Shown here: positions 1,015 to 17,886 of the stretch, one piece after another
Layout: each line of letters begins with the position of its first letter
How positions within the stretch are numbered: position 1 is the first letter of the stretch
Virus record (IMG/VR): IMGVR_UViG_3300046834_000044
Coordinates: 1 to 42,764 of that record
DNA: 42,764 bases
Strand: one strand, 5' to 3'
Origin: a virus
The notes under the pieces: generated by a model
Told to the model about the DNA's origin: nothing
Seen by the model: the letters and a program-made list of their open reading frames with translations, nothing else
Databases searched by the model: none
Program-made: the position numbers and the translations under genes

Positions 1015-1181
1015 CGGTGGCACCTTCCGATCCAGTCGATCTGCCCGCCCACTTTGGCGCACTGGTTGTCGGCACCGGTGACGAACATCGCCATCCCGCA
1101 GATTGCTCCGACGAGGCAGAACAGGAGCAGGAAGACCAGCGCGGTCCCGGCGGACTCTCCCGGCTTCGGTTCCGTCCTCAC
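1011..1181 (-). CDS. Small single-pass membrane protein
   Basis: This 56-residue ORF starts with a GTG that overlaps the TGA of the upstream winged-helix gene (GTGA); its own TGA overlaps the ATG of the endonuclease VII-like gene. Residues about 13-33 (ALVFLLLFCLVGAICGMAMF) form one hydrophobic helix, followed by a short tail with two cysteines (NQCAKV, GRCHR). The four-base overlaps on both sides argue that it is translated. No family recognised. Confidence 0.65.
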   Translation of the reverse strand: MRTEPKPGESAGTALVFLLLFCLVGAICGMAMFVTGADNQCAKVGGQIDWIGRCHR

Positions 1182-1399
1182 CAGCTCGGGCCCTTCACGC
1201 GGTATTGGTGGTGGCCCTGCCCGTTCTTCTCGTCCTTGATGAGCCCCTTCGCTTCGAGGGCTTGGAGCAGGTCCCGCGTCGGGCTCGGGTTCATGTTGAG
1301 CTTCGTGGTGATGTTGCTGATGCTGGTGTCGGGGTTGTCCCTGATGAACTGCAAGATGCGGTCTGCGTTCGTGCCGGGTTGTGGGTATACTCGCGCCAT
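1178..1399 (-). CDS. Small winged-helix DNA-binding protein
   Basis: This 73-residue protein (start MARVYPQPG) looks like a single winged helix: RILQFIRDNPDTSISNI, then KLNMNPSPTRDLLQALEAKG as recognition helix, then a short wing ending HHQYRVKG. It is MarR/ArsR-like in size and pattern. A second protein of this type is encoded at 19624-20001. The start is set by the ATG at 1399, preceded by GGTAGGATAGG; that stretch could be a ribosome site or a -10 box of a nearly leaderless transcript. It may regulate early genes, but its target is unknown. Confidence 0.6.
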   Translation of the reverse strand: MARVYPQPGTNADRILQFIRDNPDTSISNITTKLNMNPSPTRDLLQALEAKGLIKDEKNGQGHHQYRVKGPSW

Positions 1400-1415: not shown

Positions 1416-1778
1416 TCAGTATGGTGGGGTGTCTGCAGCCGATCCCGAATCCAGCCGCCCTCCCCCTGGGAGCCTCGCAGGCCATCGAACCCCACACCGA
1501 TGTTCCGGGTACCGAGCCCCGAACTTCGGATCCTGGATCCGATAAGAGTCGAGTTCGATAAGCCCGCTCCTACGCATCGCGAACAGGCGCATCCCCCCGA
1601 GAACGACGAGCTGTTGTTGAATCAGGTCGAGCGCCACGAGGTCAGCCTCCACGTGGAGACCCTCGGCTATTCCGGCAGCCAACCACAAACGGCACTTGCG
1701 ACATCGCCGGATGACGGGGATTGTCGTGTCGAAATGCCGGAAGAATCGCGGAGGTTTGATCTTCTTCTTTGAAACCAT
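1416..1778 (-). CDS. Small CxxC protein, origin-proximal
   Basis: This 120-residue protein begins MVSKKKIKPPRFF, has a CRKC pair near residues 25-30 and ends with an EHRCG segment. The pattern of CxxC, then an aliphatic middle (ADLVALDLIQQQLVVLGG), then EHRC resembles small zinc-binding hypothetical proteins common in actinophages and actinobacteria. Function unknown. It starts just outside the repeat-rich origin-like region, on the side away from the primase-helicase gene, which would fit a replication accessory role, but this is inference. The ATG at 1778 has GGGAGTGACG upstream. Confidence 0.6.
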   Translation of the reverse strand: MVSKKKIKPPRFFRHFDTTIPVIRRCRKCRLWLAAGIAEGLHVEADLVALDLIQQQLVVLGGMRLFAMRRSGLIELDSYRIQDPKFGARYPEHRCGVRWPARLPGGGRLDSGSAADTPPY

Positions 1779-1794
1779 CGTCACTCCCTGTATA

Positions 1795-2041
1795 GCGTGG
1801 AGCGTGGAGAGCGTGGAGAGCGTGGAGAGGGGGTACGCAGCGTGGAGAGGGGGAGGAATCCTACGGGGGAACAATGGGGGGAATCCCCCCTCTGACCGGC
1901 CCACAGAAAAAAGGAATCCTATCCTTTTTCTACGCTGAAAAAGAGGACGCTGCTCCTCTCTGTGCGCGGCCCCCCCCTCTCCACGCTCCACGCTCCACGC
2001 TATCACCATGCGTTTTGGCTGCCGCTCCACGCTCTCCACGC
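1795..2041. repeat. Iteron-rich putative replication origin
   Basis: Five copies of GCGTGGAG lie in direct orientation at 1795-1802, 1802-1809, 1811-1818, 1820-1827 and 1840-1847. Five inverted copies (CTCCACGC) lie at 1979-1986, 1986-1993, 1993-2000, 2025-2032 and 2034-2041. Between the arrays lie a GGGGGGAATCCCCCC palindrome, an A/T-rich near-palindrome (AAAAAGGA-ATCCTA-TCCTTTTT, about 1908-1927) and no convincing gene. Iteron clusters flanking an easily melted segment, placed just beyond the 3' end of the primase-helicase gene (stop at 2054), are the usual arrangement of a phage or plasmid origin. The TTGGCTGCC word also occurs here at 2015-2023, outside any gene. The inverted arrays could also fold as a long hairpin and serve as a terminator. 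Confidence 0.6.
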
Positions 2042-2053
2042 TGTCTCCACATA

Positions 2054-4543
2054 CTAGCCGTGATAGGACATCTTCCGGATTCGTCGACCACCGGCTGCGA
2101 TCTCCGGTCCCTCCACCACCCCGGGGGTCGCAGCGAGGGATGCTCGAACGTCCTCCCAGTATTCTTTGCGGCTGCGGGCGTCCATGGCCTGTTGCAGCTC
2201 CCGGGGGCTGAACTCCTTCCCGGGGTTGGCCTGCATCAGCTCCAGGAGCTTCGTTCCCAATTCGTAGATCCGGCCTGTCCGCTCGTCTCTGATCACCACC
2301 TCGGCGATCTGCTCGTGGACCCGGGCGACAGCACGGTTCTTGCCCCGGCGGGCGTGGTCATCGCGTTCTGCCTCGTCGAGTGCTTTCTGGCAGATCGACC
2401 GGGTCTGGTCGCTGATCCTCATGACGATCCGGGCGAGTCGCCAGTCATCGTCGGTGACCTCCAATCTTCGATCCAGGAACCCCAGCATCGCGGCGACCTT
2501 CAGTTGTGTCAGGAACGAGTGCGAGTCCATCCCCCCGTGTTCTGAGGCCAGGTTCTCCTCGCGGGCGTCGATGATCTCGTTCTCGACCTGGCGACTGACT
2601 GGGATCTCGTACCGGGGTTTCTGTTCGACGGGTTCCGGCTCGTCCTTCTCACCGCGCTGCGGACCTTCCGGCAACCAGACGTCGTATTCGATCTGCGGCG
2701 GCTGCCCGGCGTAGAGCGGGGGTTGCAGCTTATCGGTCCGTCGCAGGAGATTCGGATCGTGTACTGGCAGCCACAGGAACCGCTGCGGCAGCCCGCCGTC
2801 TGCGTCCTGGAGCAGAACCCCCGACCGTGCGGGCTGGATGCCGACCACAGCCGACGCACGGTACCGGTGAGCCGCGACCGGCCTCCTGCGCTCTTTGGCT
2901 GCGTACTGCGCTCCGAGCCGTTCGCCGCTGTACATCTTGCGCAGGTGGGGGATCAGCGCCGATCCGGTCATCTCGGCGTGTGCCTTCATCGTGTCGATTT
3001 CCGGCACGTAGAAGAACGCCACGTCGTTGTACTGCACGGCCCCCAGCTTGGGTGTGGACTCTGTGAACGTGGCATCCACGCCCTGTGGGGTGCCGACCTC
3101 CTCTACCGGGAACCGCCCCTCACAGTCGAGGTATTCCAGGGCGACCGACCACGCCGCCCCTTTGCCCTTGCCGGACGGACCGACCAATCCCACCAGCATG
3201 TTCAGGCTCGCGAGCCCACCGACGATCCGTGGCAACACGACGTGCGGGCCGACCCTGCACGAGGCGAGGGCGAGGACCGACCCGAGCATCGCCCACGGCG
3301 ACACCCGGCGCTGCCTGGCCAACCATCTGATGTCGCTGAGGTATGACCTCTCCTGCCAGAACGTGGTTTCTATCGGCAGGAGCCCCGTCCCGGTGCTGGC
3401 GGGGGCCGGGGGGGTGTCGGTGCGGGCCGGGGGCGTCTGATTCGCGGGTGGACCTCCCAGGGGTGTCGTCGGTGCCACGGGGGCGGCTGGCCGTGCCCGC
3501 TGCGGCATCATGGCGCTTCTGATTGTGTTGGCTGCCGCGCGGAGATCGCCCCCGTGGTTCATCCAGGCGTAGAGTTGCCCAGGGCTCAACGCCCGATCGG
3601 TGGGCAGCTCGGTGCTCGAACTGAAGCTGTAGAACACCTGCCGACCGTCCGGCATGGTCGCGATGTTGCCCGACACTCCGTCTTTCTGGTCTTTGCCCGG
3701 ACGCACGAAGTATCGTTTATCTTGGTGTTCGTAGGCGTAGGACCACCCGGCAGCCAACAACATCGACTCCAGGTCGTATTGCCGACCGTACCAGTCGAGC
3801 GGGCTCTCCTCGCCCACCGCGTCATCGAATCCTCGCAGCGGGGCGACCAGCTTCGACGCTCCGGGGCCACGGGGCGGGCCCGGAGCGGGCGGGGGTGCGT
3901 ACGTGCGGGGTGGGGCCGTCTGATTCGTCCCCGTGGACGCGGGACGGGTCTTCTGGGCCACGCCGGGGGCGGCTGCGATCGTCTCCCACAGCGGTGTGGG
4001 CCCGAGCAGGTCAGGGACGAGCCCACGAATCGTGTAGCCGGGGTTGCCGGGGGCGAGAATCCAGCCGTGGTGGGCACGCAGGTCGACGCCCCACACCTCA
4101 TCGGCATTCTGTTTGTTGTGCGCCGCGCTCCCTGCGAACCACAGGTGACGGCCCCCGCTGGGAGTCACCACCAACATCGACTTCTCCGGATTGATCGTGC
4201 CGCTGTCCAGCAACGCCGTCAGCTGCTGGATTCCAGGCTTGCCCTCCGAGACGTCGAAGTCCAACACGTCGGGTCCATCCTGGCATCCGCACCCACAGGC
4301 GAGGCCTGTCTTGATCCCGACCCGCGCCCCCGCGTCCCACTTCGATTTCCACCCGAGGATCGTCTGCGGGTTGGTTGTTGCCTGCCGTTCCCAGCCCTTG
4401 CCCATCCACGGCGCTTTGGTCGTGGGATCCGCCGGGCCTACAGCGAACCCCCGCGATGCCCAGACCAGGGCAAGGCTAAGGGGCGTGTCGGCGATCGCCA
4501 GGGCTTCTTTAATTGGCATGAGCTGATTGCTGCTAAGGTCCAT
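2054..4543 (-). CDS. Bifunctional primase-polymerase / helicase (PrimPol fusion)
   Basis: This 829-residue replication protein has an N-terminal archaeo-eukaryotic primase/polymerase domain (about 20-195). The metal-binding pair is in DVLDFDV (D95, D97), the SGGRHLWF histidine motif is near 129-136 and GVDLRAHHGWILAPG is near 152-166. A Pro/Ala-rich linker leads to a central region (250-340) and an ATPase domain of the DUF3987/RepA-like helicase type, with Walker A GPSGKGKG (455-462) and a Walker B-like FFYVPEID. Family knowledge says it primes and probably extends DNA and unwinds the fork. It is the only polymerase-like gene in the window. The start is the ATG with GGAGGGAAG just upstream; the gene is followed by the iteron region. 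Confidence 0.88.
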   Translation of the reverse strand: MDLSSNQLMPIKEALAIADTPLSLALVWASRGFAVGPADPTTKAPWMGKGWERQATTNPQTILGWKSKWDAGARVGIKTGLACGCGCQDGPDVLDFDVSEGKPGIQQLTALLDSGTINPEKSMLVVTPSGGRHLWFAGSAAHNKQNADEVWGVDLRAHHGWILAPGNPGYTIRGLVPDLLGPTPLWETIAAAPGVAQKTRPASTGTNQTAPPRTYAPPPAPGPPRGPGASKLVAPLRGFDDAVGEESPLDWYGRQYDLESMLLAAGWSYAYEHQDKRYFVRPGKDQKDGVSGNIATMPDGRQVFYSFSSSTELPTDRALSPGQLYAWMNHGGDLRAAANTIRSAMMPQRARPAAPVAPTTPLGGPPANQTPPARTDTPPAPASTGTGLLPIETTFWQERSYLSDIRWLARQRRVSPWAMLGSVLALASCRVGPHVVLPRIVGGLASLNMLVGLVGPSGKGKGAAWSVALEYLDCEGRFPVEEVGTPQGVDATFTESTPKLGAVQYNDVAFFYVPEIDTMKAHAEMTGSALIPHLRKMYSGERLGAQYAAKERRRPVAAHRYRASAVVGIQPARSGVLLQDADGGLPQRFLWLPVHDPNLLRRTDKLQPPLYAGQPPQIEYDVWLPEGPQRGEKDEPEPVEQKPRYEIPVSRQVENEIIDAREENLASEHGGMDSHSFLTQLKVAAMLGFLDRRLEVTDDDWRLARIVMRISDQTRSICQKALDEAERDDHARRGKNRAVARVHEQIAEVVIRDERTGRIYELGTKLLELMQANPGKEFSPRELQQAMDARSRKEYWEDVRASLAATPGVVEGPEIAAGGRRIRKMSYHG

Positions 4544-4579
4544 CTTCCCTCCAGGGTGGGGAACGAGCTTGGAGACGGA

Positions 4580-4616
4580 CCGACCCCCGGCTCACTTTCA
4601 CTGAGTCGGGGGTCGG
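4580..4616. terminator. Intrinsic terminator hairpin
   Basis: A 10-bp perfect outer stem (CCGACCCCCG with CGGGGGTCGG) encloses an inner CTCA/TGAG stem. It lies between the 4637-5410 gene and the PrimPol gene, so it would end or attenuate transcription between them. Confidence 0.65.
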
Positions 4617-4636
4617 CCTCTAGGAGGGTCGGTCGG

Positions 4637-5410
4637 TCAGCTGGCCGCGTTGCCCTGGTTCTGCATGATCGCGATCATCTTGGCCTGCTCCTCCGGCGGC
4701 AGCCCTGCGATCATCGCCATGTAGTCCATTCCGTTACCGGCCGGGGCCACTGCCGCCGGAGCGAGCGCCGGGATGGCAACCGCAGCCGGAACTGTCGCCG
4801 GAGCGACGGCAGCCTGTGCGAACTGTGCGGCAGGGGCCGGGACCGCAACGGGCGCAGGGGCCGGGGGTGCCGCAACAGCCGGGGGGCGAGCGGCCACCGG
4901 AGCGGGAGCCGGAGGAGCCGGAGGTGCGGTCGGGTTGGCTGCCGGGGGGGTCGTGGCCGGAGCGCTGAGGTTGCTCGCGTCCCGGATGGCCTCGACGGTC
5001 TCGGCCTGGAAACCCTGGCCCTCCGGCGTGTGGTCCAACCACGACCCCAGGAACGCCATCCATTCGGGTTCGAGGGTGACGTCCTGGAGCAGCCACGGGG
5101 CGGACTGTCCCGGCTTGGCCTGTCCCTGGTAGATCCGACCGGCGATGAACTCACCGATCTGCTTGCGCAGGTTGTTGTACAGGCTCACGTTGAAGAACAG
5201 CACACCCCGGTAGATCGTCGGGTTCTGCGGGTCCTCAGCGAAGTCGGCCACGTTGCACTTGATGGCCTGACTGGTGTCGTCGCCCTTGTCGTACTCGGTC
5301 TTGATCGACGGGATGTACTCGATCGGGCCGAGGATCAGCGTGTGACCGACGATGTCCTTGGGCTTGAGCTGGTCGCCCTGCTCCATCTGCTTCGGGGCGG
5401 AAAGGCCCAT
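4637..5410 (-). CDS. Hypothetical DNA-metabolism protein with Ala/Pro-rich tail
   Basis: This 257-residue protein has a compact N-terminal domain (about 1-165) with KPKDIVGHTLILGPIEYIPS, then CNVADF and GVLFFNVSLYNNLRKQIGEFIAGRI. This beta-rich pattern resembles small actinophage proteins often found beside primases and suspected to bind ssDNA, but I see no diagnostic motif. Residues about 170-245 are low-complexity Ala/Pro/Val, followed by a short tail ending EEQAKMIAIMQNQGNAAS. An acidic or flexible tail after a folded core fits an SSB-like architecture; this is inference only. It starts at an ATG with AAGGAGAA upstream and lies directly before the PrimPol gene. Confidence 0.55.
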   Translation of the reverse strand: MGLSAPKQMEQGDQLKPKDIVGHTLILGPIEYIPSIKTEYDKGDDTSQAIKCNVADFAEDPQNPTIYRGVLFFNVSLYNNLRKQIGEFIAGRIYQGQAKPGQSAPWLLQDVTLEPEWMAFLGSWLDHTPEGQGFQAETVEAIRDASNLSAPATTPPAANPTAPPAPPAPAPVAARPPAVAAPPAPAPVAVPAPAAQFAQAAVAPATVPAAVAIPALAPAAVAPAGNGMDYMAMIAGLPPEEQAKMIAIMQNQGNAAS

Positions 5411-5479
5411 CTCTCGTTCTCCTTCTCTCGTCCTGTCCCGGCGTGCCGGGCGGGGTGGTATCCCTATCTGATCACGGGC

Positions 5480-5495
5480 CTTGCCTAGCTGTCAA
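5480..5495 (-). promoter_or_regulatory. TTGACA-containing conserved promoter/operator element
   Basis: The minus strand reads TTGACAGCTAGGCAAG. Nearly the same 16 bases occur at 12150-12165 (minus, one difference) and 19562-19577 (plus, three differences), each upstream of a gene start. The perfect TTGACA suggests a -35 box for the gene starting at 5410, though a clear TANNNT at normal spacing is not obvious. The conserved GGCAA tail suggests a protein site over the -35. Confidence 0.45.
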
Positions 5496-5686
5496 GACGC
5501 CGGGTTGATCTCCCAGACGACCACCCTCAGGTCGTCGCTGGTGTCGCTGGTGCCGACGGTCGGCGGACCGATCGTCCGACCCAGAGCCCTTGCTTCGGTC
5601 TCCGCGTGGCTGGTGAGGATCAGCATTCCTTCGAGGCTCTGGGTGATCGCGAACGGCACCTCGACATACAGCACGCCCTTAACCAC
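5492..5686 (-). CDS. Small hypothetical protein
   Basis: This 64-residue protein starts at a GTG (VKGVLYVEVPFAITQSLEG) that overlaps the TAA of the DUF397 gene. Predicted strands at both ends (LYVEVPF and LRVVVWEI) suggest a small beta-containing fold. No family recognised. Its stop codon lies inside the conserved TTGACA element, showing how tightly control sequences are packed here. Confidence 0.5.
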   Translation of the reverse strand: MVKGVLYVEVPFAITQSLEGMLILTSHAETEARALGRTIGPPTVGTSDTSDDLRVVVWEINPAS

Positions 5687-5882
5687 GGGGGGCGATCCCG
5701 TCGAACTCTCCGGCCTTCACGCCGTCGATGAATGCCCACCACTCGTCCAGGCCGAACACCAGGATCGGCTGTTTCGCCAGGACGTCCTGTTTGGTGTCCC
5801 GGACGATGACCGCACCCTTGCCAGCCGCAGTCACGTCGACGCAGTTGTTGCCACCGTTGCCGTTGCTGAAGCTGCTCTTCAC
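5679..5882 (-). CDS. DUF397 domain protein
   Basis: This 67-residue protein is a clear DUF397 member: KSSFSNGNGGNNCVDV, then AVIVRDTKQ, then LVFGLDEWWAFIDGVKAGEFD. DUF397 proteins are small and almost confined to actinobacteria such as Streptomyces, where they usually pair with an XRE-type regulator, often near WhiJ/BldB-like genes. A phage copy supports an actinomycete host and suggests interference with, or borrowing of, that regulatory system. The GTG start at 5882 has GGGAGG upstream and overlaps the TGA of the preceding small membrane protein. Confidence 0.85.
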   Translation of the reverse strand: MKSSFSNGNGGNNCVDVTAAGKGAVIVRDTKQDVLAKQPILVFGLDEWWAFIDGVKAGEFDGIAPRG

Positions 5883-5995
5883 CGCTTGCGCCTCCCACCG
5901 AAATCGGTGAACCAAGCAACGACCAGCAGCAACCCGGCGATGATGCCATACCGGTCGCAGACCTGTGGGGTGTAGTCGCCGTCTTCCTTCTTCAT
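5879..5995 (-). CDS. Very small membrane protein
   Basis: This 38-residue ORF (MKKEDGDYTPQVCDRYG, then IIAGLLLVVAWF, then FGGRRKR) has one hydrophobic segment and a basic tail. Its ATG overlaps the previous gene's stop (ATGA), and its TGA overlaps the GTG of the DUF397 gene. These couplings on both sides are the evidence that it is real. Function unknown. Confidence 0.6.
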   Translation of the reverse strand: MKKEDGDYTPQVCDRYGIIAGLLLVVAWFTDFGGRRKR

Positions 5996-6192
5996 TTCTC
6001 GTCCTCCTGGGGAGCGTGTTGCTCAAGGATCTCGCCGATCTCGCGGGCAAAGTACTCGCCCTCGCCCCTGCCGTTGTCGAACCCCCGGATCTCCTCCTGC
6101 AACGTCCGTAGCGACACGATCATGGCACTCAGCCGATTGCACACCTCGACCCCGTTAATAACGATATCGAAAGTCACCTTCGACGTGGCCAT
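5992..6192 (-). CDS. Small hypothetical protein
   Basis: This 66-residue protein begins MATSKVTFDIVINGVEVCNRL and continues into a helix rich in charged residues, ending EQHAPQEDEK. The ATG at 6192 overlaps the TGA of the exonuclease gene (TGATG), so it is probably translated by coupling; the longer upstream start would lie inside the exonuclease gene. No family recognised. Confidence 0.55.
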   Translation of the reverse strand: MATSKVTFDIVINGVEVCNRLSAMIVSLRTLQEEIRGFDNGRGEGEYFAREIGEILEQHAPQEDEK

Positions 6193-6953
6193 CAGTCGTC
6201 CTTTACCGATCCGTGGCCCGGACACGAGGTCCGACCCAACTCAACGTGGGGGCGGTAGAACGGGCACCAGATGGTGCAATCCCCGGCAGGGAACGACTCC
6301 GGTGCCATCCCCGCGTTGACCAGGGTCTCGATCGTGCCGACTCGTTGCAGTGCCTGGTGCGCCAACTCCGGCTCGAACGGCAGCGAATCGAGGATCATCT
6401 TGTCCAGGAAGTTCGACCTCGGCAGGTAGCAGATCAGGATTTCTTTGACCTCGAATCCGGCCTGGACCCAACCTTCGCCGTAGGTGTTCCCCTGGACCCG
6501 GTACTGCTGAGACGTGCCATCCTTGATGACCTTGCGCATCGTGGTCGTGCCGACGATCTTCCAGTCGATCACCCGGCAGTTGTCGACGTCGTACAGGTCG
6601 GTGTGCCCGGCGGTGTCGTAACCAGACGCCCGGGACTGGATCTTCACCCGATTCTCGATCAGGAACCGGGGGTTCTTGTCTCGACCGAGGTGTGTGTTGT
6701 ACCACATCGCCGCGTCACCCAACCAGGCGTGCACGGCGGTACCGATCACCGGGAACCACGGGTCGGCAGTCTCGTTGACCTCCGGCGTGTGCCCCAGCTT
6801 GTACGCCAACTGGCGATCGCACCCCGCCCCGATCTCACTCGGGCCGAGGTGCTTCTGAAGGGAGCGGGGGCGGCTTGCGTCGTATCCCCGCACCATCCGG
6901 ATGATCTCCTGCTTGAACGGATGCGCGGATCCGACCGGCTTACTGAGTGGCAT
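6192..6953 (-). CDS. Cas4/RecB-like PD-(D/E)XK exonuclease with Fe-S cysteines
   Basis: This 253-residue protein has the PD-(D/E)XK nuclease core: an SEIGAGCDRQ segment with C45, GHTDLYDV (H117, D119), VIDWKIVG (D130, K132) and a QQYRVQGNTYGEGW helix. Three further cysteines near the C terminus (C226, C230, C244 in DCTIWC and TSCPG) complete the one-plus-three pattern used by Cas4 and AddB-type nucleases to bind a 4Fe-4S cluster. It probably degrades or processes DNA ends in recombination, perhaps with the UvrD-like helicase at 8829-10361 in the same gene block. The ATG at 6953 has AAAGGA upstream. Confidence 0.82.
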   Translation of the reverse strand: MPLSKPVGSAHPFKQEIIRMVRGYDASRPRSLQKHLGPSEIGAGCDRQLAYKLGHTPEVNETADPWFPVIGTAVHAWLGDAAMWYNTHLGRDKNPRFLIENRVKIQSRASGYDTAGHTDLYDVDNCRVIDWKIVGTTTMRKVIKDGTSQQYRVQGNTYGEGWVQAGFEVKEILICYLPRSNFLDKMILDSLPFEPELAHQALQRVGTIETLVNAGMAPESFPAGDCTIWCPFYRPHVELGRTSCPGHGSVKDD

Positions 6954-7047
6954 GCTCGTCCTTTCGAGGGGGGCGGGCCGAACCTGTCGCAAGCAGGCTC
7001 GGACCACCACCATCCGATGCTACACCCGGGGTACGACAACCCGGCTT

Positions 7048-7167
7048 CTAAACCGGGTCTACGCCCTCGCCGATCGGGGGAGGGGGCGGGGGCGGCAGAA
7101 CGACCACCGATCCGCTCTCGTCCTCCGGTTCGGGTGGGACCTCGACCGGCTCGATCGGGTCGGTCAC
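7048..7167 (-). CDS. Tiny proline-rich protein
   Basis: This 39-residue ORF starts at a GTG overlapping the TGA of the upstream gene (GTGA). It reads TDPIEPVEVPPEPEDESG, then VVVL, then seven prolines and GEGVDPV. It is acidic, disordered and coupled to its neighbour. The polyproline run might bind a partner. Too short to assign, and the call rests on the start/stop overlap. Confidence 0.4.
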   Translation of the reverse strand: MTDPIEPVEVPPEPEDESGSVVVLPPPPPPPIGEGVDPV

Positions 7168-7421
7168 GCCTTGCGGTCCTCAGCCCACCCGTCGGCGAGC
7201 ACCATCACTCCCGGGTGCGGGACCTCGACCTGGTTGCCGTTGCCGTCCCAGTGCTGGCCCTCGCGTCCGACCTCGACACCGCAGTAACCGCAGTGGTAGC
7301 CGGTCGGCTCGGAGGGGCGTTCGTTCTGGAGCCCCCCGATCGGGGCGGGTTCGGTGGCCTGGTTGGCTGCCGGGGCAACCTCCGGCTTGGCCGGTTCAGG
7401 GGCCTTCTTGGCGTCTGCCAT
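7164..7421 (-). CDS. Small zinc-ribbon-like protein
   Basis: This 85-residue protein has an Ala/Pro/Glu-rich N-terminal half and then YHCGYCGVEVGREGQHWDGNGN, where CxxC and H could form part of a zinc site. Function unknown. The ATG is preceded by GGAGGAACA. It lies in a run of small genes between the exonuclease and helicase. Confidence 0.55.
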   Translation of the reverse strand: MADAKKAPEPAKPEVAPAANQATEPAPIGGLQNERPSEPTGYHCGYCGVEVGREGQHWDGNGNQVEVPHPGVMVLADGWAEDRKA

Positions 7422-7449
7422 TGTTCCTCCTCGTGTAGACAGGACGTGT

Positions 7450-10659: not shown

Positions 10660-10865
10660 TCGGTTGGCTGCCGCGCCATCCGCTGTTCGAGATCCCACCC
10701 GTACGTTCCGTTTCTGATCGACTCCGACTGTTCGTCCATGCTCCAGTCGAGCTGTTGCTTGATCAACCACATCAGCTCGACGCTCGGTCGTCGCTTCCCG
10801 TCGAGCAGACGACTGATCGTAGCATCCGACCTGCCGACCAGACGGGCCAGCTCGGACGCGATCAC
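10656..10865 (-). CDS. Small helix-turn-helix (XRE/Cro-like) protein
   Basis: This 69-residue protein contains a Cro/C1-type HTH: SELARLVGRSDATISRLLDG, followed by KRRPSVELMWLIKQQLDW. It starts at a GTG overlapping the TGA of purB. It is the only XRE-type regulator in the window and is co-transcribed with purB, so it may control the purB/purZ divergent region. It is too small and too embedded to look like a lysogeny repressor. Confidence 0.75.
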   Translation of the reverse strand: MIASELARLVGRSDATISRLLDGKRRPSVELMWLIKQQLDWSMDEQSESIRNGTYGWDLEQRMARQPTE

Positions 10866-12094
10866 GGCTTAGCCCAATGCCGGAGGTACCAGGTCGGGTC
10901 GGTCGGCTGCCGGTCGGTCACGATCGGGTGGAGGAGGCACTGCATCAGGGCGTGCTCTCGTGCCGCTTTGGCGTCCATCCCTGAGCTTATCGCCTCGAGG
11001 GTTACCTTGTGCACAGACAGCTCGCTCTCGTGTTCGTGCAGCGCCAGTTCTGCTCCCTGCCCCAGTTCGAACGACTCCAGGAGCTTCACGGTCTCTCGTT
11101 CCACGTGAAACAGGACGTGCCAGAGGTCGGGAACCGCGACCCGTTCGACGCAGCTGTTGCTGATGTCTCGTTCGAGCCACAGGTCGAGGGGCTGGAGACT
11201 GGCGGCGTACGCGGCAGCCAACCGCTGCATGCCCGTGATCTGCTCCGCCCGGATCGGGTTGGTCTTGTGTGCCATCGACGACGAACCGACCTGGCCTGCC
11301 GGGTGGACGAGCTTGCCCTCCCCGAGCAGCAACATCAACCGGATGTCCATCGCGATCTTGGCACAAGCCGACACCACCTGGGCTGCGTCGGTTGCCCAAT
11401 GCGCCAGCCGGTCACGCGGCGCGATCTGAGAGGCTCCCTGCCCGCAACTGACCAAGCCCAACTCAATCGCGACCTTGGACTCGACCCACGGGCCGTTGTG
11501 TGCGTAATTGCCGACCGGACCGCTCGTCTTGGCCACCTGCATCTCGCCGATCGCGCCTTGAAGCCGTTCGAGCGCGGGGGACAGCAGCGCGTTCCAGTGC
11601 GACGCCCGCATCCCCATCGAGATCGGCTCGGCGGGTTCGCCGTGAGTCCGACCCACTACCATCTGCTCGCTCTTCACCCACCGATCAACAGCCTGCCGGA
11701 GGTTGCAAGCCAGACGCCATGCCCTCGGCCCCAAAGACCGGAACCGCATGCCCTGCGCGGTGTCGACGATGTCGGACGAGGTGAGGCCGTAGTGGATCCA
11801 CCGGCCGTGCGGTTCTCCGTACCAATCACGCATGAACCGCACGAACGCGGCGACGTCGTGTCGATCTTCAGCCTCGTACGCGGCCAGGCCGGTCAGAGTC
11901 CAGGGATCGTCGAAGTCGGGGTGCACGGCCAACAGCGGCTTCGTCTGCTCCGCGCGTTCCTGCTTGTCCGGGTCCTTGCCGCACTGCTCGATCTGCGCTC
12001 GGGCGACCGCTCGTTCGACCTGCCACCACGCGTTGTACGTCCACTGTCTCGACCAGAGAGCCGTCACATGGGAATCTCGGTACCTGTCGTCCAT
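10862..12094 (-). CDS. purB: Adenylosuccinate lyase
   Basis: This 410-residue protein is a full fumarase/aspartase-superfamily lyase. Visible PurB hallmarks are RHDVAAFVR (78-86), GLTSSDIVDT (103-112), the catalytic-histidine segment RTHGEPAEP (149-157), the flexible-loop signature GSSSMAHKTNP (270-280) and LERDISNSCVER (307-318). PurB removes fumarate from adenylosuccinate; in phages with 2-aminoadenine DNA the same step converts the PurZ product to 2-amino-dAMP. Known Z-phages generally rely on the host enzyme, so a phage copy divergent from purZ is notable. The ATG at 12094 with GAGGAG upstream is chosen over a longer start that would cover the shared promoter region. Confidence 0.92.
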   Translation of the reverse strand: MDDRYRDSHVTALWSRQWTYNAWWQVERAVARAQIEQCGKDPDKQERAEQTKPLLAVHPDFDDPWTLTGLAAYEAEDRHDVAAFVRFMRDWYGEPHGRWIHYGLTSSDIVDTAQGMRFRSLGPRAWRLACNLRQAVDRWVKSEQMVVGRTHGEPAEPISMGMRASHWNALLSPALERLQGAIGEMQVAKTSGPVGNYAHNGPWVESKVAIELGLVSCGQGASQIAPRDRLAHWATDAAQVVSACAKIAMDIRLMLLLGEGKLVHPAGQVGSSSMAHKTNPIRAEQITGMQRLAAAYAASLQPLDLWLERDISNSCVERVAVPDLWHVLFHVERETVKLLESFELGQGAELALHEHESELSVHKVTLEAISSGMDAKAAREHALMQCLLHPIVTDRQPTDPTWYLRHWAKP

Positions 12095-12149
12095 CTTGGC
12101 TCCTCGTCGGGGTGCGGGGGGATCGTTGTGGCCCCATGGGACCATGGCT

Positions 12150-12180
12150 CTTGCCTGGCTGTCAAGGGCTGTGGTAGAGT
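12150..12180 (+). promoter_or_regulatory. Divergent purZ/purB control region with promoter
   Basis: On the plus strand: TTGCCT (12151-12156), 18-bp spacer ending TGTGG, then TAGAGT (12175-12180), about 48 nt upstream of the purZ start. The -35 lies within CTTGCCTGGCTGTCAA, whose reverse gives TTGACAGCCAGGCAAG, matching the elements at 5480 and 19562 and giving a perfect -35 box pointing to purB. One site may therefore set both transcripts. Confidence 0.6.
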
Positions 12181-12228
12181 ACCGTAATCCCCAGCCGGAC
12201 GGCCGGGGCACACACCCTAGGGGGATGA

Positions 12229-13278
12229 GTGACCAACGTCATCGTGGTCGTCGGAGCGCAGTTCGGCTCTGAGGCTAAGGGGGCCATCACTGGTCGGTTG
12301 GCTGCCGATCTGGGCCCGCACGACGTGAACATCCGGGTGGCTGGCCCGAACGCCGGACACACCGCCTACGACCCGGACGGTCGGGAATGGAAGCTCCGCA
12401 CGATTCCGGTCGGAGCGGTCACCAGCAGGACCTGCCAGCTCCACCTGGCTGCCGGTTCGGAGATCGACCCGCTTGTTTTGGCGACTGAGATGTCCATGTT
12501 GGAGGAGGCTGGTCACGACGTCACCCGGCGGCTGACCATCCACCCGTCAGCCACGATCCTCGAACCCCGGCACCAACGGCAGGAGTCCGAGGCCGGGATC
12601 GTCGGCCGGGTGGGCTCGACCGGCAAGGGCATCGGCGCAGCTCGGGCCGAACGGGTCATGCGGACTGCTTTCACCTACCGGGAGTTCGCTGCGGGCAAGC
12701 CCTCGGCGTCTGCTCTGATGAGCGAGTCGGGGCCGTTCGATCTGGACGGCGTGGGCACGGTGGTCATCGAGGGAACCCAGGGCTACGGGCTCGGCCTGCA
12801 CACCCGGTTCTACCCGCAGGTGACCTCGTCCGACTGCCGGGCGATCGACTTCCTGGCGATGGCGGGGATCTCGCCCTGGGACGATCAGGTTCTGGACCTC
12901 CAGGTCATCCTGGTCGCCCGGACCTTCCCGATTCGGGTGGCGGGCAACTCGGGCCCGCTGAAGGGTGAGTCGACCTGGGCGGACCTCGGGCTGCCGGAGG
13001 AACGGACCACGGTCACTAACAACATCCGCCGGGTCGGCACCTGGGACGCACAGCTTCTCGACGAGGCGATCCGGGCAAACGGGGGCGGCAACTGGTCGCA
13101 GAACGTCACGCTCGCCATCACGATGCTCGACCAGCTCTTCCCCGAGAGCGCGGGCAAGACCGAAAGCGACCTCCCTGCCGACGCCCGCGAATGGCTGGTC
13201 GAGATCCAGGACGCGTTCGAAACCACCATCTCGTACGTCGGCACCGGCCCGACTACTCACTTCGAAGTGGAGCTGTAA
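12229..13278 (+). CDS. purZ: PurZ: 2-aminodeoxyadenylosuccinate synthetase (Z-genome pathway)
   Basis: This 349-residue PurA homologue is shorter than bacterial PurA (about 430). The N-terminal loop reads GAQFGSEAKG, with serine at position 14 where PurA has the catalytic aspartate of GDEGKG; that change is the known mark of PurZ. Other conserved parts are NAGHT (41-45), STGKGIG (130-136), EGTQGYGL (181-188) and VTSSDC. PurZ joins aspartate to dGMP to make the precursor of 2-amino-dAMP (base Z). The start is a GTG at 12229 preceded by AGGGGG; it has its own promoter, and its TAATG junction couples it to the MazZ-like gene. Assignment as PurZ rather than PurA rests on the Ser, the length and the neighbours. 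Confidence 0.88.
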   Translation: MTNVIVVVGAQFGSEAKGAITGRLAADLGPHDVNIRVAGPNAGHTAYDPDGREWKLRTIPVGAVTSRTCQLHLAAGSEIDPLVLATEMSMLEEAGHDVTRRLTIHPSATILEPRHQRQESEAGIVGRVGSTGKGIGAARAERVMRTAFTYREFAAGKPSASALMSESGPFDLDGVGTVVIEGTQGYGLGLHTRFYPQVTSSDCRAIDFLAMAGISPWDDQVLDLQVILVARTFPIRVAGNSGPLKGESTWADLGLPEERTTVTNNIRRVGTWDAQLLDEAIRANGGGNWSQNVTLAITMLDQLFPESAGKTESDLPADAREWLVEIQDAFETTISYVGTGPTTHFEVEL

Positions 13279-13943
13279 TGACCAACCCCCTGATCTGCGG
13301 GGTCCTCAGCCCGAGCACCGACCGTCCCTGTCTGAAGCCGGACAGCCACCGCCGGACCGAGGAACGGCCCGTCCACCAGAACGGCTCGCTGACCTGGAGC
13401 CTGCCGCTGCCGGAGGAACTGAGGATGCGGGGGCACACCCCGACCTACGAAGTGCAGGACGAGGCGTTCACTCACCTCCGGGGCCTCCAGGACACCACGG
13501 TCTCGTTCAAGGGCGTGTTCGACTCGGCAGCCATGAAAGACAACTTCGCCAAGCTGTTCAGGGACGTCCCGCCGAGCTACAAGGTCGTGTCGTTCTCGAC
13601 CGGCATCCCCGAGCCCACCCCCGGTGAACGGCTGGCAGCCTGGTGGCGCGAGCAGGCCGAATACGAGATCGAGCAGACGGTCAGCAAGGCGGTCGAGTAC
13701 GGGTCGACCGACCTGATCGACATCGGCAGGTCGCTGGCTCGGATCTGCGACCGCGAGGTCGACGACGAGGAAGCAGCCGAGATGGGTGTCTTCTTCTACC
13801 TGGAGGGCAAGTTCGCTCGGTGGCGTTCGGCACTCCAGCGGGGCCAGCGTCCCTCGGACGATACCCTGCTGGACATCGGGGTCTACGTCCGGATGGCCCA
13901 GCGGATCCGCGAGGCTGGCGGCTGGCCCGGAGTTGGAGAATGA
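13278..13943 (+). CDS. mazZ: MazG-like nucleotide pyrophosphohydrolase (MazZ candidate)
   Basis: This 221-residue protein has an unrecognised N-terminal part (1-115) and a C-terminal all-alpha NTP-pyrophosphohydrolase domain. That domain contains VEYGSTDL (139-146), REVDDEEAAEMGVFFYLEGKFARW (the ExxE region, about 159-182) and PSDDTLLDIGVYVRMAQRIREAGGWPG (acidic residues near 194-199). This pattern matches actinophage MazG-like proteins and the dGTP/dATP diphosphohydrolase family. In Z-phages, MazZ converts dGTP to dGMP, the PurZ substrate. Its ATG shares a base with the purZ stop (TAATG), so the two are made together. Specificity for dGTP is inferred from context. Confidence 0.7.
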   Translation: MTNPLICGVLSPSTDRPCLKPDSHRRTEERPVHQNGSLTWSLPLPEELRMRGHTPTYEVQDEAFTHLRGLQDTTVSFKGVFDSAAMKDNFAKLFRDVPPSYKVVSFSTGIPEPTPGERLAAWWREQAEYEIEQTVSKAVEYGSTDLIDIGRSLARICDREVDDEEAAEMGVFFYLEGKFARWRSALQRGQRPSDDTLLDIGVYVRMAQRIREAGGWPGVGE

Positions 13944-14359
13944 GCCTGATGACCACACCCGTCGGTAAGTACACGTCGATGGACAAGCTACCCACCACGA
14001 CCGGTTCGGACGTCCAGGCACAGTACGCCCGGATGATGGCTCGGCTGGTCGCCCGGTACAAACTGGCTGCCGTGCCTGGTCGGCCCGAGGAGCTGATCGT
14101 CCCGGGTCGGGACCGTGGGGCCTCGATGGGGATCTGCGGCAAGAGCATCCGGGTCCGGCTGATGCACGGTCGGCAGTGGCTCCGGTCAATCGACTTCCAG
14201 ATCGAGGAGGGCTGGCAGAAGAAGCTATACGACGCCTGCGACACCTACTTCGGCAGGTGCCCGGTCGCTGACAACCCCGACCTCGGGAACGACGCCTGCA
14301 CCTGCAAGGCCCATAGGCCGACTCCCGCGACGGTCTACCGCGCCAAGAACGAGATCTAG
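13940..14359 (+). CDS. Hypothetical protein of the Z operon
   Basis: This 139-residue protein starts with an ATG overlapping the stop of the MazZ-like gene (ATGA). It has a helical N-terminal half (AQYARMMARLVARYKLAAVPG), an RDRGASMGICGKSIRVRLMHG segment and a cysteine-rich C terminus (YDACDTYFGRCP, then DACTCKAH), which may bind zinc. No family recognised. It has no HD motif, so it is not an obvious DatZ. Confidence 0.6.
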   Translation: MSLMTTPVGKYTSMDKLPTTTGSDVQAQYARMMARLVARYKLAAVPGRPEELIVPGRDRGASMGICGKSIRVRLMHGRQWLRSIDFQIEEGWQKKLYDACDTYFGRCPVADNPDLGNDACTCKAHRPTPATVYRAKNEI

Positions 14360-14470
14360 ATGAAGAGACTCGGCCCCCTGATTGACATGCTGGTGCTGGC
14401 GCTCCCGTCGCTCCTGCTCTATGCAGCGATCTGGGGGGCCGGTCTCGGTCCCATCCGATTCCACCCCTGA
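14360..14470 (+). CDS. Very small membrane protein
   Basis: This 36-residue ORF starts one base after the preceding stop. A hydrophobic helix (LIDMLVLALPSLLLYAAIWG) occupies most of the protein. It sits in frame-tight order between two operon genes. Function unknown. Confidence 0.5.
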   Translation: MKRLGPLIDMLVLALPSLLLYAAIWGAGLGPIRFHP

Positions 14471-14476
14471 AAGGGA

Positions 14477-15406
14477 ATGATGTTCGTCTACCTCGCCAAC
14501 CCGATCGACCAGGCGGACAGTCTGCTCGGCATCGACAACATCACACACACCTTGAGCACCTGCGGGATCTCCTGGTACCACCCGGCTACCGCCTTCCACC
14601 TTAACAACATGTGTGGCCCCCTGGACCTGCGGGCGATCGACCGGATCAACCAAGAGGCACTCAGCCGCGCCGATGCGTTGTTGGTTTGGCTGCCGCGTGG
14701 TGTGCCGACCCTCGGGGTCCCGGTGGAGATCGAAACCGCGCTCCAGGCCAACACCCCCACCGTGATCCTGACCAACATCGACCGGAGCGTCCAGTTGACC
14801 TCCTGGGAGTCGAGGGGCGCGTCGGTCATCCGGTGGGACCACACGATCTCACAGCAGTGGGAGAACAACCCGAAACAGCTGCTCGCGCTCCTCCGGGTTC
14901 AGCCGGAGACCATCGGTCTTTACGACGTCGCGGCAGCCAACCACACCAAGCAGGTCGCGTTGATGCGGCACCCCGGCCCGAAGACCGATGACCTGCAGAT
15001 CAAGCTGGACCCCCGGGCGATCATGCCGAGTCGGGCGCACGACGATGACGCTGGGCTCGACCTGGCGCTGTTCCGCAATGAGAAGCTGGAGGCCGGAGAA
15101 TGCCGGATGTTGGCGACGGGGATCAAGGCAGCGCTTCCGGCTGGCTACTGGGGTTTGATCATCCCTCGGTCGTCCACCTGGGTGAAGTATCAGGTCGACG
15201 TTCGGCTGGCCGTCATCGACGCCGGGTATCGTGGCGAGCTTATGGTCCAGGCGCACAATCAAAGCACGCGGCCAATCACGTTCGTCGCCGGAACTCGGCT
15301 GGCGCAGTACGTGCTGCTGCCGACGTGGCTCGGGAAGCCGACCGAGGTGTCGGAGCTGCCGGAGCACACTCGGGGCGAGAAGGGCTACGGGAGCAGCGGC
15401 AGCTGA
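14477..15406 (+). CDS. Nucleoside deoxyribosyltransferase-like / dUTPase fusion
   Basis: This 309-residue protein has two domains. Residues 1 to about 145 resemble nucleoside 2-deoxyribosyltransferases: MFVYLANPIDQADS, WYHPATAFHL, AIDRINQEALSRADALLVWLP and VEIETALQANTPTVIL. Residues about 165-309 hold the five dUTPase motifs: DDDAGLDL, PRSSTW, VIDAGYRGELMV, GTRLAQYVL and RGEKGYGSSG. The dUTPase half converts dUTP to dUMP and keeps uracil out of DNA. The first half may hydrolyse or exchange bases of deoxynucleotides; in this operon it could act on unwanted dNMPs, which is speculation. Starts at ATGATG (14477 or 14480) after AAAGGGA. Confidence 0.85.
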   Translation: MMFVYLANPIDQADSLLGIDNITHTLSTCGISWYHPATAFHLNNMCGPLDLRAIDRINQEALSRADALLVWLPRGVPTLGVPVEIETALQANTPTVILTNIDRSVQLTSWESRGASVIRWDHTISQQWENNPKQLLALLRVQPETIGLYDVAAANHTKQVALMRHPGPKTDDLQIKLDPRAIMPSRAHDDDAGLDLALFRNEKLEAGECRMLATGIKAALPAGYWGLIIPRSSTWVKYQVDVRLAVIDAGYRGELMVQAHNQSTRPITFVAGTRLAQYVLLPTWLGKPTEVSELPEHTRGEKGYGSSGS

Positions 15407-15483
15407 CCTACTTCTGGATCGCTGCGGTGGGGATCGTCCTCGGATACGTCACCGCGACCGGTCTGATCCTCCTCAGCTACTGA
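15403..15483 (+). CDS. Possible tiny membrane peptide
   Basis: An open frame of 26 codons overlapping the dUTPase stop by one base (CTGA) encodes TYFWIAAVGIVLGYV, then TATGLILLSY, a clear transmembrane segment. The only start placed well is CTG, with GGGAG upstream, so translation is doubtful unless it is coupled. Confidence 0.3.
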   Translation: MTYFWIAAVGIVLGYVTATGLILLSY

Positions 15484-15491
15484 CATAGACG

Positions 15492-15521
15492 CGCCCCCCG
15501 CCCCTTGCCGGGCGGGGGGCG
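15492..15521. terminator. Bidirectional terminator
   Basis: A 12-bp perfect stem (CGCCCCCCGCCC with GGGCGGGGGGCG) and a 6-nt loop lie between the convergent ends of the purZ operon and the 15533-15736 gene. On the minus side it is preceded by TGAACACACGACAAC, the same 15 bases that precede the 15844-15869 terminator. Confidence 0.8.
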
Positions 15522-15532
15522 TTGTCGTGTGT

Positions 15533-15736
15533 TCAGGAGATTGCGTCGCGCAGGGTGGGGAGGGTGCGGGTTTCGCCTGCGCGTGCGGTCCGGCCGATGG
15601 TGTAGGCTGCGCTGCGGTCGCCCTCGGCCAGGGTGCGGATGGCGTTTGCGTCGGCCTCCGCCTTCGTCTTGCCCTCGATGGTCGCGGTGATGGTCTCGTC
15701 GGTGCCGAGGAAACGGAATTCGATGATTTTCGCCAT
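15533..15736 (-). CDS. Small hypothetical protein
   Basis: This 67-residue protein begins MAKIIEFRFLGTDETITATIEG, then has a helix (TKAEADANAIRTLAEGD) and a short basic tail. Beta-alpha arrangement; no family recognised. It is a monocistronic unit with its own promoter (15785-15814), a CRP-like site and an AGGGAG ribosome site shared in sequence with neighbouring units. Confidence 0.6.
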   Translation of the reverse strand: MAKIIEFRFLGTDETITATIEGKTKAEADANAIRTLAEGDRSAAYTIGRTARAGETRTLPTLRDAIS

Positions 15737-15784
15737 TTTGGTCTCCCTGGGGTGTCTGGGCGGCTCCCCCGCCCCTATATTAAA

Positions 15785-15814
15785 AGTTTACCACACGGGC
15801 GCGGATTCGCACAA
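15785..15814 (-). promoter_or_regulatory. Promoter of the 15533-15736 unit
   Basis: On the minus strand: TTGTGC, 18-bp spacer ending GTGG, then TAAACT. A CRP-like palindrome lies 5 bp upstream of the -35. Confidence 0.65.
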
Positions 15815-15819
15815 TCCTC

Positions 15820-15835
15820 TGTGGCACGTGTCACA
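15820..15835. promoter_or_regulatory. CRP-like site 1
   Basis: TGTGGCACGTGTCACA fits TGTGN8TCACA, the CRP/GlxR half-site pattern with one G in place of A. It is 5 bp upstream of the -35 of the promoter at 15785-15814. Confidence 0.5.
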
Positions 15836-15843
15836 TAAACTCC

Positions 15844-15869
15844 CGGCCCCGGGGGGCTCCCGGGGCCGG
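15844..15869. terminator. Terminator after the NADAR gene
   Basis: An 11-bp perfect stem (CCGGCCCCGGG with CCCGGGGCCGG) and 4-nt loop follow the stop at 15881, preceded on the minus strand by the same TGAACACACGACAAC block seen at the previous terminator. Confidence 0.7.
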
Positions 15870-15880
15870 TTGTCGTGTGT

Positions 15881-16321
15881 TCAGTTTGCGCCGCGCCGGT
15901 TCTCCTCGCGGATTTTCATCAGTAAATTTCCGAGGGTGTTCTTGCCCTTGCCCTTGCATGCTTCGTGCCGGGTGCATTGTCCCCAAAAATTGTCGTGCCA
16001 AATGTTTCCCTCGATAATTTGCGCGTCGCCAGTTTCCTCAAGCAAATTGCGGAGGGTTGCGTCGCGGAATTTGCGCCGCAAAATTTCCTCCATGATATTT
16101 ACTTTGAGCAATTCCCAGTCTTCGCGGAGGGTGCATCGTTTGCCTGCGTGCTTGGCCTGCCCCGGCTTCGGTCGGGAAAGGATGTGGGCCCTTTCCTCGC
16201 GGCTCTCGGTCTTGGCCGCCTGGAAAATGTGCTCGGCTGTTTTCCCGTTGGCTTCCGTGTGGAAATTGCTGAGGGGGGCCCATTTGCCGGTGAGGCTCTT
16301 GATTGTTTCGCTCTCTCTCAT
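15881..16321 (-). CDS. NADAR-family protein (possible anti-DarT1 glycohydrolase)
   Basis: This 146-residue protein is a clear NADAR (YbiA-like) domain: PLSNF (16-20), TAEHIFQAAK (28-37), PGQAKHAGKRC, METFIX-like IMEEILRRKFRD helix, ETGDAQIIEGNIWHDNFWG (96-114) and GKNTLGNLLMKIRE (127-140). NADAR enzymes cleave ADP-ribose from guanine in DNA and act as antitoxins to DarT1; orphan phage copies have been shown to counter DarTG1 defence. It has its own strong promoter, and the ATG lies only six bases after a TAAAAT box, so its mRNA looks leaderless. Its codon use is more A/T-rich than the neighbours, suggesting recent transfer. Confidence 0.82.
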   Translation of the reverse strand: MRESETIKSLTGKWAPLSNFHTEANGKTAEHIFQAAKTESREERAHILSRPKPGQAKHAGKRCTLREDWELLKVNIMEEILRRKFRDATLRNLLEETGDAQIIEGNIWHDNFWGQCTRHEACKGKGKNTLGNLLMKIREENRRGAN

Positions 16322-16327
16322 ATTTTA

Positions 16328-16357
16328 ATTTTACCATAGGTATCCGCCCCGGGGGAA
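16328..16357 (-). promoter_or_regulatory. Promoter of the NADAR gene (leaderless type)
   Basis: On the minus strand: TTCCCC, 18-bp spacer ending ATGG, TAAAAT, a second TAAAAT, then ATG. The -35 lies inside the hairpin at 16344-16371. Confidence 0.65.
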
Positions 16358-16371
16358 TCCCCTCGGGGCGG
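16344..16371. terminator. Hairpin with embedded -35 box
   Basis: CCGCCCCG and CGGGGCGG form an 8-bp stem with an inner GGGG/CCCC pair. It follows the stop of the 16392-16673 gene and carries the -35 of the NADAR promoter in its upper part. Confidence 0.6.
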
Positions 16372-16380
16372 TGGGCTTTG

Positions 16381-16396
16381 TGTGAATCGGATCACA
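16381..16396. promoter_or_regulatory. CRP-like site 2
   Basis: TGTGAATCGGATCACA has perfect TGTGA and TCACA half-sites. It lies 23 bp upstream of the NADAR -35 box and overlaps the stop codon of the upstream gene. Confidence 0.5.
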
Positions 16397-16673
16397 GGTT
16401 CCAGGTCTGCGGGGTGTCGATGCCCTCTGCCCGGCAGGCCTTCGCCAGTTCGGCGTGCAGCGCGTTGTATTTGGCGTGGGCCCTGGTCTCGCGGGTCGAT
16501 TGGATCGGCTTGAGGTTGGCAGCCTTGGCGATCCGGTAGGCGCGGTGGGCCTTGATGGCGGCGGTGGTGAGGCGGGCGACGGGGCTCTTGGCGGGCTTGG
16601 TCTTCGGGGCCTTGAAGGACTCGCAGAGGGCGTTCGCGGCGGCGGTGTTGACGTGAAGGCAGTTGGTGTGCAT
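16392..16673 (-). CDS. Small basic hypothetical protein
   Basis: This 93-residue protein begins MHTNCLHVNTAAANALCESF and is rich in Ala, Lys and Arg, with long predicted helices (ARLTTAAIKAHRAYRIAKAAN and TRAHAKYNALHAELAKACRAEG). The charge suggests nucleic-acid contact, but no family is recognised. The ribosome site CGGGAG lies before the ATG at 16673; the promoter is at 16729-16758. Confidence 0.55.
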   Translation of the reverse strand: MHTNCLHVNTAAANALCESFKAPKTKPAKSPVARLTTAAIKAHRAYRIAKAANLKPIQSTRETRAHAKYNALHAELAKACRAEGIDTPQTWNL

Positions 16674-16728
16674 TTCGGGCTCCCGGGGCGTTTGGGGTTT
16701 GGGCTGTTTCCCTCTCCCCTATATAATA

Positions 16729-16758
16729 AGTTTACCATAGGGGTGGGGGCTCGCATAA
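16729..16758 (-). promoter_or_regulatory. Promoter of the 16392-16673 unit
   Basis: On the minus strand: TTATGC, 18-bp spacer ending ATGG, then TAAACT. A CRP-like site starts 5 bp upstream of the -35. Confidence 0.65.
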
Positions 16759-16763
16759 TCCCC

Positions 16764-16779
16764 TGTGGCGTACGTCACA
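16764..16779. promoter_or_regulatory. CRP-like site 3
   Basis: TGTGGCGTACGTCACA, TGTGR-N6-TCACA pattern with a CGTACG palindromic centre, 5 bp from the adjacent -35 box, exactly the spacing seen for site 1. Confidence 0.5.
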
Positions 16780-16898
16780 CAGATTCGAGCGCGGGCGTCC
16801 ACGGGGCGGGCCCGCCGGGGCCAGGGGTGTGTACGCACCGGGGGCTGCGTGCGAGGTCGCGGACGGCCACGCGGGGCGGGCTCCCGGGGGTACGGGCT

Positions 16899-16923
16899 CG
16901 CCCCCGGCGGGGGGCCGGGGGCG
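16899..16923. terminator. Terminator after the 16940-17479 gene
   Basis: A 9-bp stem (CGCCCCCGG with CCGGGGGCG) just beyond the stop codon on the minus strand. The rest of the 265-base gap (16674-16939) holds this hairpin, the promoter and CRP-like site 3, and further GC-rich inverted repeats, but no gene that I can support. Confidence 0.5.
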
Positions 16924-16939
16924 GTGGGTTGCCCTGCGA

Positions 16940-17576: not shown

Positions 17577-17577
17577 C

Positions 17578-17876: not shown

Positions 17877-17886
17877 CTATGAATCG

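Follow-up and report, generated by a model that had tools for sequence, protein, structure and literature searches.

What is the role of the dense cluster of short repeats that lies directly beyond the 3' end of the primase-helicase gene in this viral genome? The window, by which we mean the entire 42,764-base IMG/VR virus record analysed here, codes for a large terminase, an HK97-type portal, a prohead protease and a capsid protein, and additionally for an exonuclease with weak matches to the Cas4 family and a UvrD-type helicase. Genes for WhiB and DUF397 proteins (19998-20285, plus strand, and 5679-6050, minus strand, respectively) are typical of actinobacterial hosts. Further genes include a Lyase_1 family member resembling adenylosuccinate lyase (10862-12211, minus strand), a possible fusion of a C-terminal dUTPase domain to a region weakly matching nucleoside deoxyribosyltransferases (14477-15406, plus strand) and a CmcI/rhamnosyl O-methyltransferase-like gene beside the structural genes (33444-34106, minus strand). 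Judging from the sequence, structure models and analogy with characterised replicons, the region 1794-2042 is very probably the DNA replication origin of a tailed actinophage, with the PrimPol-helicase as its initiator; the array could instead serve regulation or partition. The array and its flanking genes are arranged as follows:

1178-1399, minus strand: gene for a small winged-helix protein, the conserved next gene in close relatives
1416-1778, minus strand: gene for a conserved CxxC protein adjoining the array, found in close relatives only
1794-1847, plus strand: PrimPol-distal iteron arm, with AGCGTGGAG at 1794, 1801, 1810, 1819 and 1839
1979-2042, minus strand: PrimPol-proximal iteron arm, with AGCGTGGAG at 1979, 1986, 1993, 2025 and 2034
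2054-4543, minus strand: PrimPol-helicase of 829 residues, the predicted initiator, with an N-terminal Prim-Pol and a DUF3987-type helicase

The first-pass annotation had described ten repeats, five in each orientation, in an arrangement too regular for chance, and an exact count bears this out. All ten copies of AGCGTGGAG between 1794 and 2042 are exact, and its nine nucleotides are the fully conserved unit; copies with one mismatch are absent from 1701-2110. The 8-mer GCGTGGAG has 11 copies in the whole window against 3.56 expected, the largest value in 100 shuffles being 9, and ten of the 11 copies fall within the 247 bases of 1795-2041 (plus strand at 1795, 1802, 1811, 1820 and 1840; minus strand at 1979, 1986, 1993, 2025 and 2034). 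Chance is thus disfavoured. When the whole window is scored in 600-base tiles the array is unmatched, the runner-up being a score of 7 within a gene at about 4.7 kb. Its outer edge (2042) lies 11 nucleotides from the PrimPol stop codon (2054-2056), confirming the placement just past the primase-helicase gene. The claim that the array contains no gene also holds: a 207-residue open reading frame (1416-2039) runs through it but is open in the window only, and in three relatives (G003, G004 and G010) stop codons interrupt that frame between the array and the CxxC gene.

An inverted array might act through pairing, as a structured RNA, an attenuator or a single-stranded DNA hairpin with some other use. 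The region does fold far better than its shuffled versions (z of -8.3) and the paired arms change together between relatives; however, any inverted array folds. Moreover, the copies within an arm are identical as well, an identity that pairing alone would not demand, and the intra-arm spacings are irregular and not mirror images (outside in, 7, 9, 9 and 20 versus 9, 32, 7 and 7 nucleotides). These two features therefore favour recognition of individual sites over pairing. Lineages with the copy order ++-/+-- pair their arms locally instead, no Rfam family scores above threshold (only miRNA models are hit, at 30.7 against 137 bits), and no terminator was found. We accordingly regard a role as a stem as remote.

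None of the phage records searched showed DNA similarity to the window, and relatives were therefore reached through the terminase and PrimPol proteins. The terminase recovered 15 viral contigs, six of which carry the PrimPol. The closest relative, G003, whose PrimPol is 61% identical, has an array of AGCGATGAG immediately after the PrimPol stop codon; G004 and G010 have arrays of GTGTAGGAC in the same place, and the unit in G001 is GTGTACG. Loss of the repeats in close relatives, which would have spoken against an origin, was not found: G003 retains nine copies, all with the changed unit. The contig of G005 breaks within its array, with GGTGGGAGG at both contig ends. Contig breaks fall in or at the array in G005, G009 and G001. 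Most other contigs end about 800 bases ahead of the terminase gene, a point that G005 and G001 span. Among more distant relatives the unit is GTTTGCTGG in Gordonia phage Francois and other records of the Betterkatz group, GGTTCCGAGGG in Tsukamurella phage TPA4, of the GTGGACA type in Gordonia phages TinyDot and Hibiscus, GGTGTCAG in the Mycobacterium abscessus prophage prophiGD17-1 and CGTGGCCA in Dulem virus 32. The comparison with relatives proposed earlier thus shows the place of the array conserved and its word changed among genomes that share no DNA similarity. An exact search of viral contigs with a single 24-mer gave three matches, all of them unrelated collagen-like coding repeats, and phrog_28894 had no match in three genomes, where the control was likewise without a match.

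The genes next to the array bear on another explanation, namely that it is a control site at which a repressor or activator, such as the small winged-helix protein or the CxxC protein, regulates an operon or the late genes. In close relatives the two genes that follow the array do encode these proteins, and operators can be repeated. Against this, the array persists in genomes with other neighbours, such as endonuclease VII in Francois and different genes in TPA4, TinyDot, Dulem virus 32 and integrated elements, and the helicase is the sole gene common to all loci. A scan of 1300-2500 for the sigma-70 consensus, to which it was limited, revealed no promoter-like site, and an operator needs no mirrored arms around an AT-rich centre. 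A control site is hence unlikely. The CxxC protein, which had been put forward as a possible binder of this DNA, is for its part unlikely to be a general one, since the array stays beside other genes in Francois, TPA4 and TinyDot.

The units of several lineages contain TGTCCAC, which is part of the actinobacterial DnaA box, whose consensus is TTGTCCACA. This raises the alternative that the repeats are DnaA boxes, at which host DnaA opens the DNA before the helicase is recruited. The unit of the window lacks TGTCCAC. Within the array of the window no TTGTCCACA is present at up to one mismatch, and a single two-mismatch copy lies at its edge (2043-2051); across the window, TTGTCCACA-like sequences occur at the chance level (95 against 92.8 expected). 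Furthermore, the units AGCGATGAG, GTTTGCTGG and GGTTCCGAGGG are far from the DnaA box, although the boxes of the hosts are conserved. A DnaA-box origin is therefore very unlikely, and an origin read by the phage's own PrimPol-helicase is to be preferred.

Such an origin would be expected to melt between the arms, where the following elements are found:

1848-1978, no strand: central stretch, proposed melting region, 54% GC, lowest 30-base window 37% GC
1876-1890, no strand: GC hairpin GGGGGGAATCCCCCC
1890-1897, minus strand: GGTCAGAG motif (as read on the gene strand), common to the G010 and G005 cores and Nonomuraea plasmid III
1908-1929, no strand: A/T-rich palindrome AAAAAGGA-ATCCTA-TCCTTTTT

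The central A/T-rich palindrome noted in the first-pass annotation is thus present. As a whole the centre is modestly AT-rich (54% GC versus 65% in the first 10 kb), and its poorest 30 bases belong to the lowest 0.24% of that region. The same tendency is seen more widely: the GC content of the centre is below that of the locus in 26 of 27 loci, and the poorest 30 bases of the centre lie at a median percentile of 0.1% of the locus. The exception is G003, with a centre of 69% GC that is not AT-rich. The non-coding centre TGTTATACAGCCCARGATAGTTGTTGNGACAAAGATCCCCGGTCAGAGGCC is strongly conserved in G001, G005 and G010 and more weakly in G004, while the arms differ. The sharing of GGTCAGAG among centres is suggestive only: in a search for a motif common to all centres, TTATACAG and GGTCAGAG recur, but their best counts are not clearly above those in shuffled centres. 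A search with the conserved core CAAARATCCCCGSTCAGA gave, past the known relatives, chance matches only (L060, L062 and L063). GC skew, one of the checks proposed for an origin here, shows no switch at the array; it drifts with gene direction and is uninformative.

Pfam detects the Prim-Pol domain in the window's protein (E-value 4e-18) together with a weak DUF3987 match that lies below the cut-off, whereas DUF3987 is above the cut-off in the homolog from prophiGD17-1. The N-terminal PrimPol fold matches ORF904 of pRN1 (E-value 1.5e-5). As the full-length model has a mean pLDDT of 57, with a helicase core too poor to use, only two parts of it were considered, the N-terminal PrimPol and the following C-terminal element:

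2057-2275, minus strand: C-terminal winged-helix domain, residues 757-829, the candidate iteron reader, from structure prediction

These last 73 residues are predicted to adopt a winged helix, with mean pLDDT values per ten residues of 72-91. VIA Z-scores for the model reach 8.7 against winged-helix domains only, values of 7-9 indicating just the common winged-helix fold; a weak profile match is to the C-terminal domain of RPA32, and a Foldseek search gave nothing under an E-value of 0.001. By analogy with SaPI Rep and Cch2 (see below), this domain is most likely the one that reads the iterons. If so, the unit might be expected to change with the protein, and similarity between units does track similarity between helicases (r=0.25, permutation p=0.001). 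Co-divergence of unit and helicase is in this way weakly shown at the sequence level; a partial correlation of the unit with the winged helix beyond the whole helicase is not significant (p=0.08).

Two helicase queries run against about 1,200 genomes of actinobacteria yielded 37 loci (one fetched twice). Helicase loci were scored by any 7-mer occurring at least twice on each strand, and in a first scan, from -60 to +600 relative to the helicase stop codon, 27 loci passed with at least five copies and a value reached in none of 100 dinucleotide shuffles. This range missed arrays overlapping the 3' end of the helicase frame in L073, L076 and L098, where the tail of the protein is therefore partly translated iterons. 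With the range changed to -200 to +400, a post hoc choice made after inspection of the data, an array was present in 31 of the 46 helicase loci and in 8 of 296 control windows drawn from those loci (Fisher test, odds ratio 74, p about 2e-25, a value that overstates independence because the loci are related). In single-linkage clustering with a cut-off of 50% identity in the helicase core, where the pairwise median is 37%, the 46 loci form 24 clusters, 19 of which are positive. The array edge mostly lies between -2 and +33 nucleotides from the helicase stop codon. The order ++-/+-- recurs with different words (GTGTAGG in L030, GTGGACA in L080, GGTGGAC in L081 and L105, and GCGGGGT in L093).

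Fifteen of the 46 loci fail, five of them with four weak copies near the stop codon. No array occurs at the helicase 3' end in a clade with long C-terminal extensions (L072, L088, L091, L101 and L102), the scan finds none after the primase of the cluster O phage Firecracker, and a Tsukamurella plasmid with a distant helicase relative also has none. Several annotated genes overlap or cover arrays (L056, 5712-5984; L069, 6251-6601; L070, 6224-6489; L059, 5757-6491), among such annotations being Hibiscus 55, TinyDot 58, prophiGD17-1 38 and 39, and Dulem XCD05793.1. At least the first of the cases listed are probably not real genes, suggesting that several annotated phage "genes" are the array itself.

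Two loci come from elements of other kinds. Plasmid III of Nonomuraea gerenzanensis, a circular 59-kb record that encodes a P27 terminase small subunit, has TGTGGAC copies in the order +++-+--- around an AT-rich centre directly after its helicase, and the module is therefore tied to an extrachromosomal element. Given its terminase small subunit and helicase-origin module, this plasmid may be a phage-plasmid. The centre at this locus (locus L113; NZ_LT559120.1, locus coordinates 13066-22319) shares a TTATACAGGTCAGAGG-like sequence with the phage cores. In the second locus (L111; G763:C15:711000-723000, 1769-7429), an integrase and an HTH repressor are divergent from a DUF3987 helicase with an iteron array after it, so that this actinobacterial genome contains a PICI-like layout. 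Since repeated arm sites around a core resemble attP in outline, the array might also be imagined as a recombination site, with a core and arm-type integrase sites. Yet in L111 the helicase gene separates the integrase from the array, and the window, a possibly incomplete record, has no match to the tyrosine (PF00589) or serine (PF00239) recombinase families, for which the positive controls worked. The probability of an attP-type site is accordingly negligible.

Taken together, the fact that highly diverged relatives keep the position and architecture of the array but change its word, the AT-rich centre with the predicted C-terminal winged helix, and the exact precedent of PICI/SaPI origins (PMC6092414, PMC7581432) support the earlier reading of this region as a replication origin, which stands as a candidate. 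In the mechanism that we propose, the PrimPol-helicase would bind each arm, most likely via its C-terminal winged helix, and two helicase assemblies would form on the opposed arms, facing each other. The AT-rich centre would then melt and the helicase would load itself there, with the fused Prim-Pol domain laying the first primers. The outcome would be a bidirectional start that requires neither host DnaA nor a separate loader. The freedom of the word to change would come from parallel changes in the reading domain of the initiator, as in SaPI and iteron replicons. Replication start sites of PrimPol-type actinophages are mostly unknown, and the recurrence of this layout with different words makes those of actinobacterial viruses and mobile elements testable. 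As a rule, opposed short repeats around an AT-rich centre right after a PrimPol or helicase gene would mark a candidate origin; this yields sequence-defined candidates in about 19 diverged lineages of the helicase, some of them represented by isolated phages that have laboratory hosts, and small replicating actinobacterial vectors could follow.

Among known systems, several resemble this one in part. The alpha protein of satellite phage P4 combines primase, helicase and an origin-binding C-terminus in one polypeptide and acts with short iterons, as here, but P4 has separate ori and crr sites and a helicase of another family. Cluster O mycobacteriophages, which have a related PrimPol-helicase, have a proposed origin that is likewise an AT-rich element with nearby repeat sets, but it sits between genes 12 and 13 rather than 3' of the primase gene (PMC4351075). 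The origins of extrachromosomal mycobacterial prophages are also those of actinophages, but of the RepA or RNA type and not of the PrimPol-helicase type, and their authors identified no iteron-kind repeats at repA, save for a parS-like set of direct repeats (PMC7157519). Among the searchable papers that deal with Gordonia phages, cluster O phages and mycobacterial phages of the extrachromosomal kind, none describes the layout after a PrimPol gene; within this scope its novelty is provisional. In SCCmec, the isolated C-terminal domain of the helicase Cch2 binds the putative origin, which consists of direct repeats just downstream of its gene (PMC7581432). There, however, the repeats are only three, of 5 nucleotides, no opposed arms are required, and both the helicase family and the primase are different.

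The closest likeness is to PICI and SaPI origins (PMC6092414; for SaPI replication origins, Ubeda et al. 2007 as cited in PMC7581432). These too lie immediately 3' of the initiator gene and have two sets of short iterons flanking an AT-rich centre, and the window has both features. Further common features are a module that includes both primase and helicase, in some cases as one fused protein, and an iteron word that varies among members. In SaPIs, the C-terminal domain of Rep recognises iterons that lie just downstream of the Rep gene (PMC7581432). SaPI Reps are described as being of the DUF927 or D5/Primase_Cterm type, whereas the protein here is of the DUF3987 type with a PrimPol of the pRN1 kind; Pfam gives Prim-Pol and weak DUF3987, which is still compatible with distant kinship to DUF927/D5. 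The carriers also differ, being satellites in the one case and a complete tailed phage with capsid, portal and terminase, or another actinobacterial element, in the other. The window itself is not a PICI element, as it has a capsid, prohead protease, portal and large terminase, and no integrase. The earlier suggestion that such an origin would resemble plasmid systems more than classical siphophages thus proves too narrow, since several unrelated groups of actinophages share the layout and its best match is with phage satellites.

A tentative and rather doubtful extension is that the PICI-type origin, rather than being a trait of PICIs, is the standard replicon of a very broad set of actinobacterial phages, phage-plasmids and integrated elements, with the word under diversifying selection as an incompatibility type, for example through escape from satellites or origin-directed nucleases, or through avoidance of cross-initiation in co-infection. 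The origin-directed nuclease of phage ICP1 cuts at satellite iterons, and counter-defences of this sort, its authors suggest, may favour diversification of the replication machinery in satellites (PMC8263062). By analogy, a pressure like that of the ICP1 nuclease is a possibility behind the change of word seen here. In 2018 the layout was held to be common to no known replicon besides PICIs (PMC6092414), and its occurrence in complete phages therefore bears on the source of the satellites' replicon. As far as sequence can tell, the known PICI/SaPI layout now extends to complete tailed actinophages, to a circle resembling a phage-plasmid and to integrated elements, in association with a helicase of another family.
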